Of a stretch of 64,000 nt of DNA, positions 1,275 through 39,280 are shown piece after piece (positions within the stretch are counted from its first letter, which is position 1; every line of letters begins with the position of its first letter). Both the position numbers and the translations under genes were made by a program. Location: contig CACOJM010000006.1 in the NCBI GenBank assembly GCA_902627565.1, positions 1-64,000 of the forward strand. The letters run 5' to 3'. The notes under the pieces were generated by a model, which saw only the letters and a program-made list of their open reading frames with translations, was not told where the DNA came from and searched no databases. The DNA comes from an uncultured Pelagibacteraceae bacterium. Its GTDB lineage: Bacteria > Pseudomonadota > Alphaproteobacteria > Pelagibacterales > Pelagibacteraceae.

Positions 1275-2551
1275 ATATTAAATAAATCTCTATTTTTCCA
1301 TTTAATTATAACTTCTGCACCGCCCCTTGTCTTTGAATTCCAGCAATTCACAGATGCAAAATTTTTTTCTAATAATGTTTTACCAATAAAAAGCCCTAAA
1401 CCTAATCCAATTTTTTCTTTATTGGTTGTTTTGATTGATTTTAAGTATGGCTCTCCTATTTTTGATAAAATATCACCTGGATAACCATCACCATCATCTT
1501 CTATTATTACCTCTGTATTTTCGTTATCTGATTTTAAAGTAATATAAATTTTTTTTTTACAAAATTTATTCGCATTACCAATGAAATTTCTTAGACCATA
1601 AATAATTTCAATCGACTTTGTTATTTTTTTTGAATTTGAGTCTTGATTTGTATTTAGTATAAAATCATTATCACTTGTTTCTTTGAAAGAAGAAATTATA
1701 TCTTTTAAATAAGTACGCATATCAATATCTTCATCGATAAAACTATCTTCTTCACTCGGATTTAAAGATAACTTCTTTAAAATCTCGTCACATCTTTCAA
1801 CTTGACTAGATAAAAGCTTTATGTCTTGATACACATCTTTTTGATCTTTCAGCTGTTTAGTAAGTTCTTGAGTAATAATTTTTATAGTTGATAGAGGTGT
1901 TCCTAAAGAATGCGCTGCGGCTGCGGCTTGGCCACCTAATGATAACATTTCATGTTCTTTTGCCATTATCTCTTCCATTTTATTTAATGCCTCCTTTCTC
2001 AATCTTGATTCAATACCAAAAATAATTGCAAAGTAATTAAGAAATATTAAAGCAATTATAAGAGCTACCGGTATTGAAAAGTAATAATATGGGCTAATAT
2101 GAAAATGGTCATTTAAAGGACTTGGTAGATCTGTTGAATAAAATGTAAGTATAACTATAGCAATTAAAGTAAACAACACTAATAATAAGTTTGTTCTTAA
2201 TCCCAAATTTGATGAAGCAAAAACACTTGGAATCAATAAAAATATTGAAAATGGATTGCTAACTCCCCCTGTTAAATAAATTAAAATTCCAAGTTGAATG
2301 ATATCTATAATTAGAAAAATTAGTGCTGATCTATCAGATAATTGAGTTTTTTTGTATAAAAAGATTAAAAAAAAATTGCTTATTATTCCAATGAAAATAA
2401 CGGCATTACAAATTAAAAAATTAAAATCAAATTTAAAATAAAAATATACTAAATTTACTGAAAATAGTTGACCTATAATTCCTATCCATCTTAAATTTAT
2501 ATATGTTGACTTTTTTAAAGAATAAAATTTTGAAGTCTCGAAAAACTCCAT
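1271..2551 (-). CDS. regB: RegB/PrrB-type redox sensor histidine kinase
   Basis: Membrane sensor kinase of the RegB/PrrB/ActS family, which senses quinone-pool and redox state and phosphorylates RegA. About six hydrophobic helices fill residues 20-180. The ubiquinone-binding heptapeptide GGVSNPF is at about 95-101. The H-box [14 protein letters not shown] has His214, and the redox-active Cys is kept in QVERCDEIL (Cys254). The C-terminal HATPase region includes DDGDGYPGD and [10 protein letters not shown]. It starts 2 nt after gyrB on the same strand, so the two are probably co-transcribed. No regA or senC gene is adjacent, unlike the classical cluster. The family call is strong; the signal sensed in this organism is inferred. 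Confidence 0.9.
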
Positions 2552-5306: not shown

Positions 5307-6670
5307 TGATTAAAGCGATAATTTTTGATTTAGATGGTGTATTAGTTGATACAAAACAAATTCATTTTGAAGCTTTAAATGCTGCATTAAGAAAATACAA
5401 ATTTCAAAAAATTTCAATTGATGATCACATAAAAATTTTCGATGGTTTACCTACAAATGAAAAACTAAAAATACTTCAAAAGAAAAAAAATCTCCCAAAA
5501 AAATATTTCTTAAAAATAAATAAATACAAACAAAAAGTAACAGCTGAAATATTAAAAAAAAATATCAAAAAAAATGATAAAATTATTCATATGATGAAAA
5601 ATTTGCATGGAAAATATAAAATTGCGGTTGCTACCAATGCGGTTAATTCAACTTTAAAAATTTGTTTGAATAAACTTGGAATTTCAAAATATGTAGATTT
5701 TAAACTATCAAATGAAGATATAGTGAATCCAAAACCAAATCCTGAGATCTACTTAAGAATATTCATTAAGTTTGGAATATATCCATCTGAAGCTCTAATA
5801 GTCGAAGATTCGCATTATGGTAGAGAGGCTGCTATTTCCTCGGGCGCAAAACTTTTACCAATAAAAAAAATTGACGAATTAGATTTGAAAAAAATTAAGC
5901 TTAATCTAATATCAAAAAAAATAACAGATAAAAAAAATGTATCTTGGGAAGATAATAAAATGAATGTCCTAATACCTATGGCTGGTGCTGGCAAGAGATT
6001 CTTTGATGCTGGTTATGTTTTTCCCAAACCTCTAATTGAAGTTGATAATAAACCAATGATACAATGGGTGATTGAAAGTTTAAATTTACAAGCTAATTAT
6101 ATATTTATAATTCAAAAAGAACATCAAGAAAAATATAATATTAAAAGTGTTTTAAAAATTCTACAACCAGAATGCAAAATAATTGAACTCGATCATTTGA
6201 CTGAAGGTGCAGCTTGTACAACCTTACTAGCAAAAAAATATATCAATAATTCTGATCCTTTAATAATTGCAAACTCAGATCAATACATAAATTGGAATAG
6301 CTCAAAAGCTCTTTATGATTTCAACTCAAAAAATCTCGACGGTGCAATTTTAACTTTTGAGGCTATCCATCCAAAATGGTCATATGCAAAATGTAATGAG
6401 GAAGGTTTTGTCACAGAAGTTGCTGAAAAAAAAGTAATTTCAAAAAATGCGACTGTTGGTGTCTATTATTGGAAACATGGTTCAGACTACGTAAAATCTG
6501 CAGAGGAAATGATCGAGAAAAATATAAGGGTAAACAACGAATTTTATGTTTGTCCGGTTTATAACGAGTTTTTGGCAAAAAATAAAAAAGTAAAAATTCA
6601 TAATGTTGATAAAATGTGGGGATTGGGTACACCAGAGGATCTTGATAATTTTATTCGAAGCATTAAATGA
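5306..6670 (+). CDS. HAD phosphatase / sugar nucleotidyltransferase fusion
   Basis: Two enzymes in one chain. Residues 1 to about 195 form a HAD-IA phosphatase or phosphoglucomutase-like domain: motif I DLDGVLVDT (8-16), the motif II region ATNAVNS, Lys in NPKPNPEIY, and motif IV VEDSHYGREAAISSGA. A short linker leads at about 219 to a nucleotidyltransferase domain beginning MNVLIPMAGAGKRF, with FPKPLIEVDNKPMIQWV and a metal-site ANSDQYI. Such proteins make NDP-sugars; the HAD half may trim or isomerise the sugar phosphate. It overlaps its upstream neighbour by 1 nt and the downstream WavE-like gene by 4 nt. The fused architecture is clear; the sugar is unknown. Confidence 0.85.
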   Translation: MIKAIIFDLDGVLVDTKQIHFEALNAALRKYKFQKISIDDHIKIFDGLPTNEKLKILQKKKNLPKKYFLKINKYKQKVTAEILKKNIKKNDKIIHMMKNLHGKYKIAVATNAVNSTLKICLNKLGISKYVDFKLSNEDIVNPKPNPEIYLRIFIKFGIYPSEALIVEDSHYGREAAISSGAKLLPIKKIDELDLKKIKLNLISKKITDKKNVSWEDNKMNVLIPMAGAGKRFFDAGYVFPKPLIEVDNKPMIQWVIESLNLQANYIFIIQKEHQEKYNIKSVLKILQPECKIIELDHLTEGAACTTLLAKKYINNSDPLIIANSDQYINWNSSKALYDFNSKNLDGAILTFEAIHPKWSYAKCNEEGFVTEVAEKKVISKNATVGVYYWKHGSDYVKSAEEMIEKNIRVNNEFYVCPVYNEFLAKNKKVKIHNVDKMWGLGTPEDLDNFIRSIK

Positions 6671-7845
6671 GTTTTAAAAATTTATTAAAAAAAAAATTAG
6701 GTAATCATTATTATAAAATAAGATCTAAATATATTTTAACTAAAATATTTGGAAAATATTATCTCAATACAAGATCAATTATAAAAGAGTTTACTAGCAA
6801 ATTTTCTTTTATTAAAAGAAATCTTAATAAAAAAATAGAATATCAAAGTATAATTAATAAAGAATCAGGATTTATTGTAGACTGTACTAAAGATAACTAT
6901 TTTAGCTACCATTTACGACCAAAAAATTCTAAAGATTTTAATTTAGAAAGTACTTGTACAATTAACGAGAAGATTGCAATTATAATACAGGGTCCAATTC
7001 AGGAAAGATTCGCTTTTCTAAAAAACACATTAAAAATTTATAAAAAGATATTTAAAAATTCTATAATAATCATCTCAACTTGGGAAAATGAAAATAAAGG
7101 TTTATTAAGTAGCCTAGAAGATCAAAATATATTTATAATTTTTAACAAAGAACCGGAAAAATCTCATAATAATATAAATCATCAAATACTCTCAACAAAT
7201 ACAGCATTGAAATTTGCAATTGAAAAAGGTGCAAAATATTCACTAAAAACACGCGCAGACGTAAGAATTTACAAAAATAACTTAGAAACTTATTTAATCT
7301 CACTAATAAAAACTTTTCCTATAAAACAAAACAATCTAATAAGTTCCAGAATAATTGTTCCGAGCTTAAATACTTTTAAATTTAGAATTTACTCATTGAG
7401 TGACATAGTTATGTTTGGTGAAAGTAAAGATCTAATAGAATATTTCAAACTTGAATTTTTTAGAGAAGGTCTTAAAAAATTTAATTTGGATGAAAAAAAT
7501 TTCTTAAAAAATGGCACTCCTGTAGTTGCTGAAATTTTTTTATGCTCCAGATTTATTAATTCATTAGAAAGTAAAATCGATTGGGATTTGTATAATTGGT
7601 GGCAAAGTCTAAAAAATTATTTTTGTATAATTGACAATTCTTCATTAGATTTATTTTGGCATAAATATAATTGGGAATACGAATATAGATATTTAAGAAC
7701 ATATGCTGATAAATTCGCAAGGGCTATAGATTTTCAAGATTGGTTATCACTATACCAAGGATATGAAAATAATTGGCAACTTGCATCAAATGAACATGAA
7801 AAATATAATGAGTTATTGAAACTTACAAATATTTTTAAAGATTAA
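6667..7845 (+). CDS. WavE-like LPS/capsule synthesis protein
   Basis: A 392-residue protein resembling the WavE lipopolysaccharide-synthesis family. The signature region is IAIIIQGPIQERFAFLKNTL followed by NSIIIISTWENE, then ALKFAIEKGAKYSLKTRADVRIY, which looks like a nucleotide-sugar-binding GT-A fold. The first 100 residues are Lys/Asn-rich and unassigned. The start ATG overlaps the stop of the HAD/nucleotidyltransferase fusion (ATGA), so the two are co-translated. The 3' end overlaps the convergent FkbM-family gene by 4 bp. A glycosyltransferase role is inferred from family resemblance; donor and acceptor are unknown. Confidence 0.7.
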   Translation: MSFKNLLKKKLGNHYYKIRSKYILTKIFGKYYLNTRSIIKEFTSKFSFIKRNLNKKIEYQSIINKESGFIVDCTKDNYFSYHLRPKNSKDFNLESTCTINEKIAIIIQGPIQERFAFLKNTLKIYKKIFKNSIIIISTWENENKGLLSSLEDQNIFIIFNKEPEKSHNNINHQILSTNTALKFAIEKGAKYSLKTRADVRIYKNNLETYLISLIKTFPIKQNNLISSRIIVPSLNTFKFRIYSLSDIVMFGESKDLIEYFKLEFFREGLKKFNLDEKNFLKNGTPVVAEIFLCSRFINSLESKIDWDLYNWWQSLKNYFCIIDNSSLDLFWHKYNWEYEYRYLRTYADKFARAIDFQDWLSLYQGYENNWQLASNEHEKYNELLKLTNIFKD

Positions 7846-8543
7846 ATTTTTATAAAGTCAGAAATTTGGTTAGCAAACTTTTTAAACATAAAAAAATTAG
7901 TTACACCAATCTTATTAATGAAGATATAATCATTATTTTTTAGTATCTTGTAAACTTCATTATTATAATAATCCTCAGGGAATAAATCATTATTTTCTAT
8001 TGTCACCAAAGTAGGAGTAAACTTTTTAAAATCTATGCCTTTAATTACATCTAATTCACTCCCTTCAACATCAATATTTAAATATTCGAATGAACTAATA
8101 TTATATTTAATTAAAACAGAATTTAATTTTAAACACTCTATCTTTTTTTTTTGTTGGTTATCATGTTTTTGAATTAAAGAATTTTGTTGGTTAATAGGTG
8201 AATTTTCATAATAATATGTTTCCCCATCAAAATTTGATATGGCTAAATTCAAATTTATATCTTTTTTTCTCACAATTTTAAAAAGATCAATTGATGTTTT
8301 GCTTATATCAATATTTATCCCATGCCAGTTTTTTTCATACAGCTTCGCAGTTAGTGAGCCTTTGAAAGGATGATAACATCCAACATCAACATAAAATCCT
8401 TTATTTACATTTTTAAATAATCTATTAATAAAAACATCCTCTGCAAATTCACCAAAATGAACTGAGGGTTTTTTATTTCTATAAATTTTTAATATCTTAT
8501 AAAAAAAGTAAAATAATTTATTTTTAAGTAATTTATTTTTCAC
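7842..8543 (-). CDS. FkbM-family methyltransferase
   Basis: SAM-dependent methyltransferase of the FkbM family, usually O-methylating sugars or polyketides. Motif I is [16 protein letters not shown], the acidic end of strand 2 is GINIDIS, and the later [17 protein letters not shown] is the classic FkbM segment. It begins with GTG: the GTG at 8543 overlaps the lepA stop as GTGA, so translation is coupled to lepA at the tail of the long translation-gene unit. It faces the WavE-like gene, with which it probably shares a role in surface-glycan decoration. The target is unknown. Confidence 0.85.
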
Positions 8544-36086: not shown

Positions 36087-36412
36087 TGACCTATATAGTT
36101 AATGACAAATGTATCAAATGCAAACACACAACCTGTGTTGACGTTTGCCCTGTCGATTGTTTTTATGAGGGAAAAAATATGCTTGTAATTAAACCGGATG
36201 AGTGTATAGATTGTGGCGTTTGCGAACCAGAGTGCCCTGTTGATGCTATCAAACCTGATACAGAGCCTGGTAGTGAAAATTGGTTAGAACTTAATAAAAA
36301 ATATTCTGAAATCTGGCCAAATATAACAGAAAAAAAAGATCCACCATCGGATCATGAAAAATATAAAGATGAGCAAAATAAGTTTGAAAAATATTTTAAA
36401 GAAAACCTTTAA
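36086..36412 (+). CDS. fdxA: FdxA-type 7Fe ferredoxin
   Basis: Ferredoxin with one 3Fe-4S and one 4Fe-4S cluster. The N-terminal cysteines [18 protein letters not shown] and the second [16 protein letters not shown] match alphaproteobacterial FdxA (ferredoxin II) of about 110 residues. The C-terminal half ([17 protein letters not shown]) is the family's usual tail. It overlaps the TerB-like gene by 1 nt and carD by about 44-59 nt. It passes electrons at low potential; its partner is not visible. Confidence 0.93.
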
Positions 36413-37241
36413 AAAAAAATCAAAAAAACAGATTAAAAAAATAACCAAAAAAAAAATAATAAATAAAAAATCAGAAGTTTTAAAAAAAGTAAAAAAAGCT
36501 AAGAAAACCAAAGTCAAAAAAAAATCTCTTAAAAAGAATCAAAAAGTCGAAAAAATAAGTGTTGATCAAAAAGGAGAGAATTTAAGAATTTCAAAAAGTA
36601 ATGAATTAAAGCCTGAAATAAAAAAAGTTAAAAAACAAGAAACTGCAAAAAGAGAATATAAAATTAAAGATTATATAGTTTACCCTAAACATGGGGTTGG
36701 ACAAATCTCTGAATTTAAAAAAATTAATATAGGCGGAATTGATGTGGAAACTTACATCATTAAATTCGAAAAAGACAAAGCAAACGGAATGGTACCTGTA
36801 AACAAACAACTACATTTACGCCCTTTAGCTACAATTAACCAAGTTAATAAGTGTATTTCTATTTTAAAAAGTAAACCTAAAATTAAAAGATCAATGTGGA
36901 GTAGACGAGCTCAAGAATATGAAGCTAAAATCTCATCTGGAAAAATTTATGAATTAGCGGAAGTTGTTAGAGATTTAAATAAAGGAGATGATCTAATGGT
37001 TGACCAATCTTATAGTGAGAGACAACTTTTTGAAAAAGCATATGAAAGAATTTTATCTGAATTTAAAATTATACTAGATCTATCTTTAGAGGATACGCAA
37101 AAAAAATTAGACAAAGCCTTAAAAAGAAATTTAGAGGGTCAAAACAAAACTCAAACTCCAATTACAAAAAACCCAACATCCGAGCTGCCGGATGAGGAAC
37201 CTATTTCCGAAAACGATACTGAAGAGCCTTTAGGAGACTAA
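36354..37241 (+). CDS. carD: CarD/CdnL-type transcription regulator with Lys-rich N-terminal tail
   Basis: RNA-polymerase-binding regulator of the CarD_CdnL_TRCF family. Residues 101 to about 165 form the RNAP-interacting domain ([38 protein letters not shown]), and the helical DNA-contact domain follows ([35 protein letters not shown]). Unusually, about 100 residues of almost pure Lys-rich sequence precede it, and the first 15-20 codons overlap the end of fdxA in another frame. The ATG at 36369 (MSKISLKN) is an alternative start. The acidic C-terminus ends [16 protein letters not shown] terminator hairpin follows immediately. Confidence 0.9.
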
Positions 37242-37243
37242 AA

Positions 37244-37285
37244 AAAAACGCCTCTCACACAGAAAGCGTTATGAGAAGCGTTTTT
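37244..37285. terminator. Bidirectional rho-independent terminator
   Basis: Arms 37244-37257 and 37272-37285 pair around a 14-nt loop. As minus-strand RNA, AAAAACGCUUCUCA pairs fully with UGAGAGGCGUUUUU including one U-G, followed by further U residues; as plus-strand RNA there is one C-A mismatch and then a run of five U. It starts 2 nt after the carD stop and 19 nt past the end of the convergent basic-peptide gene, so it closes both. Confidence 0.85.
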
Positions 37286-37304
37286 AATAAAGAATACTAA
37301 GCTA

Positions 37305-37382
37305 CTATCTTCTTCTTCTTTTTTTAGCTTTTTTCTTAGCTTTTTTCTTAGCCTTCTTTGCTTTTTTTCTTCTTTTAGCCAT
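37305..37382 (-). CDS. Tiny Lys/Arg/Ala-rich basic peptide, 25 aa
   Basis: Too short for the ORF track. The minus strand reads ATG GCT AAA AGA AGA ... AGA TAG, a 25-residue peptide starting MAKRRKKAKKAKKKAKKK and ending KKRRRR, with only Ala besides Lys and Arg after the Met. Support for a real gene: AAGGGAG eight nt before the ATG (rare strength for this genome), a TTGACA element and perfect palindrome upstream, and its own strong terminator 19 nt past the stop. Size and charge recall tiny ribosomal peptides (eL41, bTHX) and histone-H1-like tails; an RNA- or DNA-binding role is inferred only. A short noncoding RNA is the alternative. Confidence 0.7.
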   Translation of the reverse strand: MAKRRKKAKKAKKKAKKKAKKRRRR

Positions 37383-37403
37383 CTTTAGCTCCCTTTAAGT
37401 TAA

Positions 37404-37422
37404 ACGAATCAAATTGATTCGT
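37404..37422. promoter_or_regulatory. Perfect palindrome in the basic-peptide leader
   Basis: ACGAATCAA-A-TTGATTCGT is a 19-bp perfect inverted repeat with 9-bp arms and a single central base, 21 bp upstream of the basic-peptide ATG and downstream of its candidate promoter. A one-base centre suits a dimeric DNA-binding protein better than an RNA hairpin. The regulator is unknown, and no second copy was noticed in this window. Confidence 0.55.
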
Positions 37423-37432
37423 GATTACCTTA

Positions 37433-37461
37433 TTTTTATTTTTTTATACACGTTATGTCAA
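37433..37461 (-). promoter_or_regulatory. Candidate promoter of the basic-peptide gene
   Basis: The minus strand has consensus TTGACA, then 17 nt, then TAAAAA, lying just upstream of the palindrome and about 51 nt before the ATG. The -35 is perfect and the -10 is poor, so the exact -10 is uncertain. The rest of the gap to 37579 is A/T-rich with nothing else recognised. Confidence 0.4.
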
Positions 37462-37579: not shown

Positions 37580-39280
37580 TTAATAAAGTTTTTCTAAATC
37601 TTGTTTATATTTTTCTAAAATTTTTTTTCTTTTTAATTTTAATGTCGGTGTTAACATTCCATTTTCTATCGTAAATTCTTCTTTAATTAATATAAATTTT
37701 TTAACTTTTTCTATTAAAGATAAACTTTTATTCAAATTTTCTAAATAAAACTCAATTTCTTTTTTATTTTCTTCACTTTCACTTACAATTAAGGCAACTA
37801 AATAAGTTTTTTTATCTCCAAAAACGAAACTTTGTTTTATTTTTTCATTTAAACATAATAGATTTTCAATCTTTGATGGGGAAATATTATCACCACCTAG
37901 ATTAACGATAATTTCTTTTTTTCTATCAGTTATTTTTAAATTTCCATCTTTTGTGATTTCTCCTATATCTCCAGTATGTAACCAGCCATCCTTTATAATT
38001 TTCTCTGTTTCGTTTTTCATATTCCAATAACCAAGCATAACATTTTCTCCTTTGACTAAGATTTCTCCATCTTCTGCTATCTTTACTTCGTTTGTTTTAA
38101 AAGGCGGTCCGACTGTATCAATCTTGATTTTTCCAGGAATATTACAACTCACAACAGGAGAAGCTTCGGTCAGACCATATCCTTGTAAAGTTGGTAATCC
38201 TATAGAGTTTAAAAATTCTCCAATTTTTTGGTCTAAGGCACCTCCTCCAGATACGAAAGCTTTCAGCTTGCCACCAAACTGTTTTCTAATTTTTCCTCTT
38301 ACTAGTTTTTCACAAAAAAAATCAATAAATTTTTCTTTCAAATTAAGATTTCCATTATTTAGTTTTTTAATTCCTAATAAAATAGTAGATGATATCATTT
38401 TTTTCTTAAAACCTGTTTGTTTTGAAAAATTCAAACTAATTTTGCTATATAAATTTTGATAAAATCTAGGTACAGCAGTCATTATTGTAGGTTTTGCAAC
38501 AGACATATTAGATAATAATTTATCTAAGCTTTCAGCATAATAAATTTTTGCTCCAAGTGAAATTTGAACAAACTGAACTGCATGTTCATATGAATGAGAT
38601 AATGGCAACCAAGTTAAAAAAACAGGATCGCAATTTCTCACTAATGAAATTAAAATTTCTTGAGCTCCCTCACAATTTGACAAAATACCTCCATGACTAA
38701 GCATTACTCCCTTAGGGTTACCAGTTGTTCCAGAGGTATAAATTATACAAGCGAGGTCTTTCCTACCGATTTCTTTGTTAAATTTTGAGAGAGTATCTAA
38801 GTTAACCTTTTTAGAATATTCATTAAAAATACTTTCTATACTTTCAATTTTATTGCTTATATTTTCTATTGATAAAATCTTTACTCCATCTGAAATAAAT
38901 TTTTCTATCTTTTTTAATTGGATATTATTTGAAACAATACATATTTTTGGCTTACAATCATTCATGATGTATTCATAATCTTTTTCTGAATAAGTTGTAA
39001 ATAATGGAACTGTTACCCCACCAGCATTCATTATGGCTATATCACAAATAAGCCATTCTGGTCTATTTTCGGATAATAATATGCACCTGTCTCCTTTTAA
39101 TAAATTTGTTTTTAAGTAATCTGTTAAAATCTCAATATTTAATTTAACTTGTTCCCAAGTCAAAAAATCTTTTTTACTATCTTTTAACCATTTTAGAAAT
39201 GGCTTGTTTGAGGCAGAATTTATTTCTCTATACTTTGTGAAAAAAAGTTCAACTAGACTATTTATCTTATCAAATTTCAT
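37580..39280 (-). CDS. Long-chain acyl-CoA synthetase (AMP-forming)
   Basis: Adenylate-forming ligase activating fatty acids to acyl-CoA. The P-loop-like motif is CIIYTSGTTGNPKGVMLSH, the linker motif region is LQGYGLTEASPVVS, the ribose-binding Asp is in GWLHTGDIGEI, and the hinge is KITDRKKEIIVNLGG, followed by the eukaryote-type FAA1 C-terminal arrangement (ISPSKIENLL). At 566 residues it is close to FadD15/FAA1-like enzymes. It lies alone between tRNA-Leu and the basic-peptide gene, on the same strand as both. Confidence 0.9.
   Translation of the reverse strand: MKFDKINSLVELFFTKYREINSASNKPFLKWLKDSKKDFLTWEQVKLNIEILTDYLKTNLLKGDRCILLSENRPEWLICDIAIMNAGGVTVPLFTTYSEKDYEYIMNDCKPKICIVSNNIQLKKIEKFISDGVKILSIENISNKIESIESIFNEYSKKVNLDTLSKFNKEIGRKDLACIIYTSGTTGNPKGVMLSHGGILSNCEGAQEILISLVRNCDPVFLTWLPLSHSYEHAVQFVQISLGAKIYYAESLDKLLSNMSVAKPTIMTAVPRFYQNLYSKISLNFSKQTGFKKKMISSTILLGIKKLNNGNLNLKEKFIDFFCEKLVRGKIRKQFGGKLKAFVSGGGALDQKIGEFLNSIGLPTLQGYGLTEASPVVSCNIPGKIKIDTVGPPFKTNEVKIAEDGEILVKGENVMLGYWNMKNETEKIIKDGWLHTGDIGEITKDGNLKITDRKKEIIVNLGGDNISPSKIENLLCLNEKIKQSFVFGDKKTYLVALIVSESEENKKEIEFYLENLNKSLSLIEKVKKFILIKEEFTIENGMLTPTLKLKRKKILEKYKQDLEKLY

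Follow-up and report, generated by a model that had tools for sequence, protein, structure and literature searches.

The closest described counterpart of the locus analysed here is found in Chlamydia, where the loop of the small RNA IhtA occludes the start codon of hctA, the gene for an H1-like DNA-compacting protein (PMC4355289). As in that system (PMC4355289, PMC3469542), our locus would join a stem-loop RNA, probably acting in trans, to the message for a small and highly basic, putatively H1-like protein, and the loop of the RNA is complementary to the start region of that mRNA. IhtA pairs over about 7 nt around the AUG and does not cover the Shine–Dalgarno (SD) sequence, whereas the loop found here matches 13 nt, from the SD to the AU of the AUG. 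HctA is also larger than the 25-residue microprotein. The likeness is functional, not genealogical, and no homology is claimed. The partner RNA itself is already catalogued as Rfam family RF01814, or ‘rhtB RNA’. Meyer et al. (2009, PMC2704228) described it as a conserved hairpin near rhtB that might serve as a terminator or regulator, and named no target; here it is given one. Our main reading, which we hold with a probability of about 0.76, is that the locus encodes a polycationic, histone-H1/protamine-like microprotein whose translation would be controlled in this genus by the trans-encoded antisense RNA RF01814.

The window (the whole stretch of DNA analysed, 64,000 nt from an uncultured Pelagibacteraceae bacterium) carries the microprotein gene on its minus strand. 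A first-pass annotation had described an ATG-to-TAG open reading frame (ORF), a ribosome site AAGGGAG (37395-37389), a TTGACA element (37461-37456) and a terminator hairpin, and each was found in place; it had noticed neither the conserved 5′-UTR hairpin nor the antisense partner, which another part of the genome encodes. The features are as follows.

36354..37241, plus strand: carD, the conserved convergent neighbour
About 37244..37285, minus strand: intrinsic terminator, common to carD in tail-to-tail arrangement
37305..37382, minus strand: coding sequence of the 25-residue K/R/A microprotein (ATG at 37382, TAG at 37305), with orthologues in relatives
37375..37393, minus strand: antisense target site GGGAGCUAAAGAUGGCUAA, of which 13 nt (37393-37381) are predicted to pair with the entire RF01814 apical loop
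37389..37395, minus strand: SD sequence AAGGGAG, kept in genus units and in separately aligned carD-neighbour units
37405..37421, minus strand: 5′-UTR hairpin CGAATC..GATTCG, present in 167 of 168 genus units
37432..37438, minus strand: weak −10 element, TAAAAA or AAAAAT, within an A-rich tract that hardly varies
37456..37461, minus strand: TTGACA, the −35 element, without variation across the genus sample
37580..39280, minus strand: gene for an acyl-CoA ligase, upstream in the same orientation, listed for context

Together, promoter, 5′-UTR hairpin, SD, 25 codons and terminator make up a self-contained gene. Its product, MAKRRKKAKKAKKKAKKKAKKRRRR, is encoded from 37382 to 37305 and holds only Lys, Arg and Ala after the initiator Met. 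The organization is not that of a leader peptide or attenuator: no regulated gene follows directly downstream on the same strand, and the terminator is succeeded by the convergent carD. As minus-strand RNA this terminator has a folding energy of −20.0 kcal/mol (z −5.7), and as plus-strand RNA one of −13.9 kcal/mol, in agreement with the earlier observation that the hairpin pairs completely only as minus-strand RNA. Taken on its own, the promoter match is at chance level in this AT-rich DNA (1 in the scan versus a mean of 1.3 in shuffles), with TAAAAA at a spacing of 17 nt or AAAAAT at 18 nt; it rises beyond chance because it is conserved in relatives. Read with the 17-nt spacing, the weak −10 has no T at −7 and may be of the CarD-dependent promoter type that has been proposed for Alphaproteobacteria (PMC8407463). 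No result places carD in the mechanism.

Comparison of carD-flanking loci from relatives establishes that the minus-strand gene is real, with orthologues family-wide. An ORF of the K/R/A type, opposite carD and reading towards it, is present in almost all of the relatives' loci fetched. Within the genus, the −35 element (TTGACAT), the A-rich −10 region, the CGAATC..GATTCG hairpin, the SD and the terminator are conserved, and the SD reads GGGAGCTAAAG or GGGAGCTAAAA in 168 of 168 distinct units, which had been picked by that motif. The 5′-UTR hairpin contains a G-U pair in the one remaining genus unit and in genera g9 and g10; these G-U pairs favour an RNA hairpin, and the palindrome is therefore not read as a DNA operator or as a GANTC methylation site. 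A search with a sequence model recovered the unit from 200 of the 297 genomes of the order, spread over five genera that all belong to one family. The four genera besides this one differ in leader and terminator sequence, yet the anatomy is unchanged and the reading frame is kept; a second family of the order has no comparable K/R-rich ORF beside carD. This family-wide conservation of frame, SD and terminator bears out the first-pass proposal that an expressed gene for a basic peptide lies hidden here, including the check in relatives suggested there, which found both frame and ribosome site conserved. The position opposite carD likewise proves to be conserved synteny.

The SD-start sequence GGGAGCUAAAGAUG has exactly one further occurrence in the genome, and a 14-mer, GGGAGCTAAAGATG, has one more copy in most genomes. 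The 13-mer GGGAGCTAAAGAT occurs at exactly two sites in this genome, one in the microprotein gene and the other in locus L149, which lies on a different contig from the target. The opposite strand at this second site is the loop of RF01814. Covariance-model scores were 79.4 (the copy of this genome), 82.1 and 77.8 bits against a gathering cut-off of 55. The RNA has a stem of 10 bp, followed by the inner helix AGCC/GGUU and an apical loop of 13 nt, AUCUUUAGCUCCC, and in this genome an extended −10 element, TGATATAAT, ends just before the stem. It is found in 173 of the 297 genomes of the order, or 106 of the 150 near-complete ones, and every one of them belongs to the same genus. Stem pairing is kept in 84 of 84 loci; 3 pairs are compensatory and 11 are wobbles, and these changes place the RNA on the rhtB strand, the only one that they fit. 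Read instead as a sense-strand decoy, the second site would turn all 11 T.G stem pairs of the 84 loci into A-C mismatches, and that reading is disfavoured also by the extended −10 on the rhtB strand.

The loop AUCUUUAGCUCCC is the exact antisense of GGGAGCUAAAGAU, the 13 nt from the SD through the AU of the AUG, and the match extends over 19 nt in this genome. The calculated duplex energy is −36.0 kcal/mol; of 58 other ORF starts in the window, none does better than −16.6 kcal/mol. The complementarity is not only perfect but co-varying. Among 62 sampled pairs, the base before the AUG and its counterpart in the loop are G and C in 57 and A and U in 5, with no mismatches. As a check for bias, 399 genomes of the genus were searched separately for mRNA sites without the G and for loops without the C. 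The former search returned only A (15 genomes) and the latter only U (14 genomes), with 13 genomes in common. Ten of these 13 were new to the first sample and bring the total to 72 genome pairs: 57 G/C, 15 A/U and 0 mismatched. In these searches three genomes (G512, G066 and G464) had the variant on one side and the partner was not recovered; an extra mRNA-pattern match in G464 is the reverse strand of the RNA itself. In a codon tree of carD, the A-type sites belong to at least two lineages that stand apart from each other. The number of independent covariation events is small, two or more. Variation at codon 2 (GCU or CCU) finds no compensation in the RNA, with a C:C mismatch in 29 of the 62 pairs, which may be because that part of the RNA sits in the inner helix AGCC/GGUU. 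Overall, base pairing between the microprotein mRNA and RF01814 is strongly supported by this sequence evidence.

The spacer between SD and AUG allows a comparison across genera. It takes 2 forms in the 168 units of the RF01814-bearing genus, which had been gathered through the SD motif while the last base of the spacer stayed open, versus about 8 forms in 12 genomes of genera without RF01814. A model search that did not require the SD motif agreed with this in those loci that were read. Presence of the RNA thus goes with a frozen spacer and its absence with a free one, and the freezing is confined to the RNA-bearing genus. The genera without RF01814 have the microprotein gene, and no second copy of their own SD-start site was found in them. 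Weak RF01814 matches in these genera are unrelated sequence that lacks the loop.

These observations suggest how the pair may work. Both RNAs would be made together, and the 13-nt loop of RF01814 would pair with the SD, the spacer and the AU of the AUG on the mRNA, blocking 30S binding and repressing translation, so that the peptide would be made only when RF01814 RNA is scarce. The peptide would then bind DNA or RNA. Such binding, proposed in the first-pass annotation, is plausible from composition, and the microprotein is most likely a minimal histone-H1/protamine-like nucleic-acid binder. An antisense RNA dedicated to the start site points to conditional expression; the high expression proposed earlier is unproven. 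No match to Hfq (PF17209) was found in 31 genomes of the order, with Hfq-bearing controls positive, which is consistent with long, Hfq-free pairing. We would give even odds to the broader reading that this orphan RNA family is a dedicated switch for a protamine-like microprotein, an Hfq-independent control of nucleoid or RNA condensation within a minimal genome, added by one genus to an older gene of the whole family.

A tiny ORF with an antisense RNA across its start is also seen in type I toxin–antitoxin systems, and the locus could on this ground be read as a toxic basic peptide with RF01814 as its antitoxin, all the more since the chlamydial analogue HctA is lethal on expression in E. coli (PMC4355289). 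However, type I toxins are hydrophobic proteins of less than 60 residues that span membranes, and the microprotein is polycationic, with K/R/A, a little P, T and S, 15–24 Lys and Arg residues per peptide in the genus units, and no hydrophobic segment. Its gene is single-copy, fixed in synteny beside carD, near-universal in the genus and apparently inherited vertically; exact patterns for the gene and the RNA found neither in viral contigs. Further, gene and RNA are unlinked, and other genera hold the gene without the RNA. We therefore regard a toxin–antitoxin system as unlikely.

Control might instead run in the reverse direction, with the peptide mRNA opening the hairpin in the 5′-UTR of rhtB and its Lys and Arg codons sensing amino acids for this LysE-type exporter. 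In most loci the gene after RF01814 is indeed rhtB, the hairpin stands just upstream of the exporter start, and pairing could open the stem. But the hairpin and its loop are retained where rhtB has been lost or replaced: a proC-like ORF follows in five loci, and no ORF of more than 120 residues starts nearby in five (loci without rhtB: L158, L161, L172, L174 and L175 versus L164, L167, L169, L171 and L180). The loop, moreover, matches the SD and AUG and not an accessory site, and the peptide mixes Lys, Arg and Ala. We consider this direction quite improbable. The same retention without rhtB leads us to reject a role of the hairpin solely in cis for rhtB. RF01814 RNA probably acts in trans, as in the preferred reading of an antisense repressor of the microprotein. 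A U-run stands directly 3′ of the stem in only 22 of 73 loci, so that any placing of the RNA's 3′ end is tentative.

The nature of the peptide raises a further alternative. At about 25 residues and rich in Lys and Arg, it resembles the ribosomal microproteins eL41 and bTHX in size and charge, it has a strong SD, and it is present in all five genera of the family in which the unit was found. Yet Pfam, NCBIfam and PDB gave 0 matches, a weak test for low-complexity 25-mers, and the length varies from 21 to 35 residues among the 168 genus units and up to 49 (longest reading) in the other four genera, with nothing fixed besides K/R/A as residue types. The ribosome-associated role suggested in the first-pass annotation is weakened by these results, and there is little probability that the peptide is of the eL41 or bTHX kind. 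What the sequences do preserve is a coding frame of unusual composition: the genus units contain Lys, Arg, Ala, Pro, Thr and one Ser, and nothing else, and the distance from the ATG to an anchor in the 3′ UTR is in one phase in 137 of the 138 units in which the anchor was found and out of phase in 1. A fortuitous ORF within a non-coding RNA whose target site looks like an SD and start codon is a highly improbable reading of the conserved unit, for although DNA-level conservation is higher in the leader than in the 3′ half of the ORF, length changes are in frame (multiples of 3), only K/R/A-type codons are used, Lys and Ala codons change synonymously across the 168 units, and the frame persists in four other genera despite their different leaders.

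SAR11 cells have few transcription factors. The pair described here offers a concrete, testable sRNA–mRNA interaction for SAR11 gene regulation, carried by almost every near-complete genome of the genus, and assigns a putative target to a 17-year-old orphan Rfam family. It also draws attention to a class of genes overlooked by standard methods, since many gene callers pass over ORFs this short, BLAST masks them for low complexity, and trypsin leaves only tiny fragments of their products. The ocean's most abundant bacteria hold an unnoticed gene for a tiny polycationic protein, and an sRNA probably switches it off.

Three other genes deserve mention. The carD product is Lys-rich, as the first-pass annotation had stated, but the stretch is a long N-terminal extension (36354-36650, plus strand) and not a tail, with the RID domain beginning at residue 102. 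In locus L149, a DUF2805 gene (1338..1634, plus strand) lies divergent from the RF01814 RNA. The same locus encodes a FecR-domain protein (7904..6633, minus strand) with a long C-terminal tail of KKKA/KKKP repeats that resembles the microprotein in composition.
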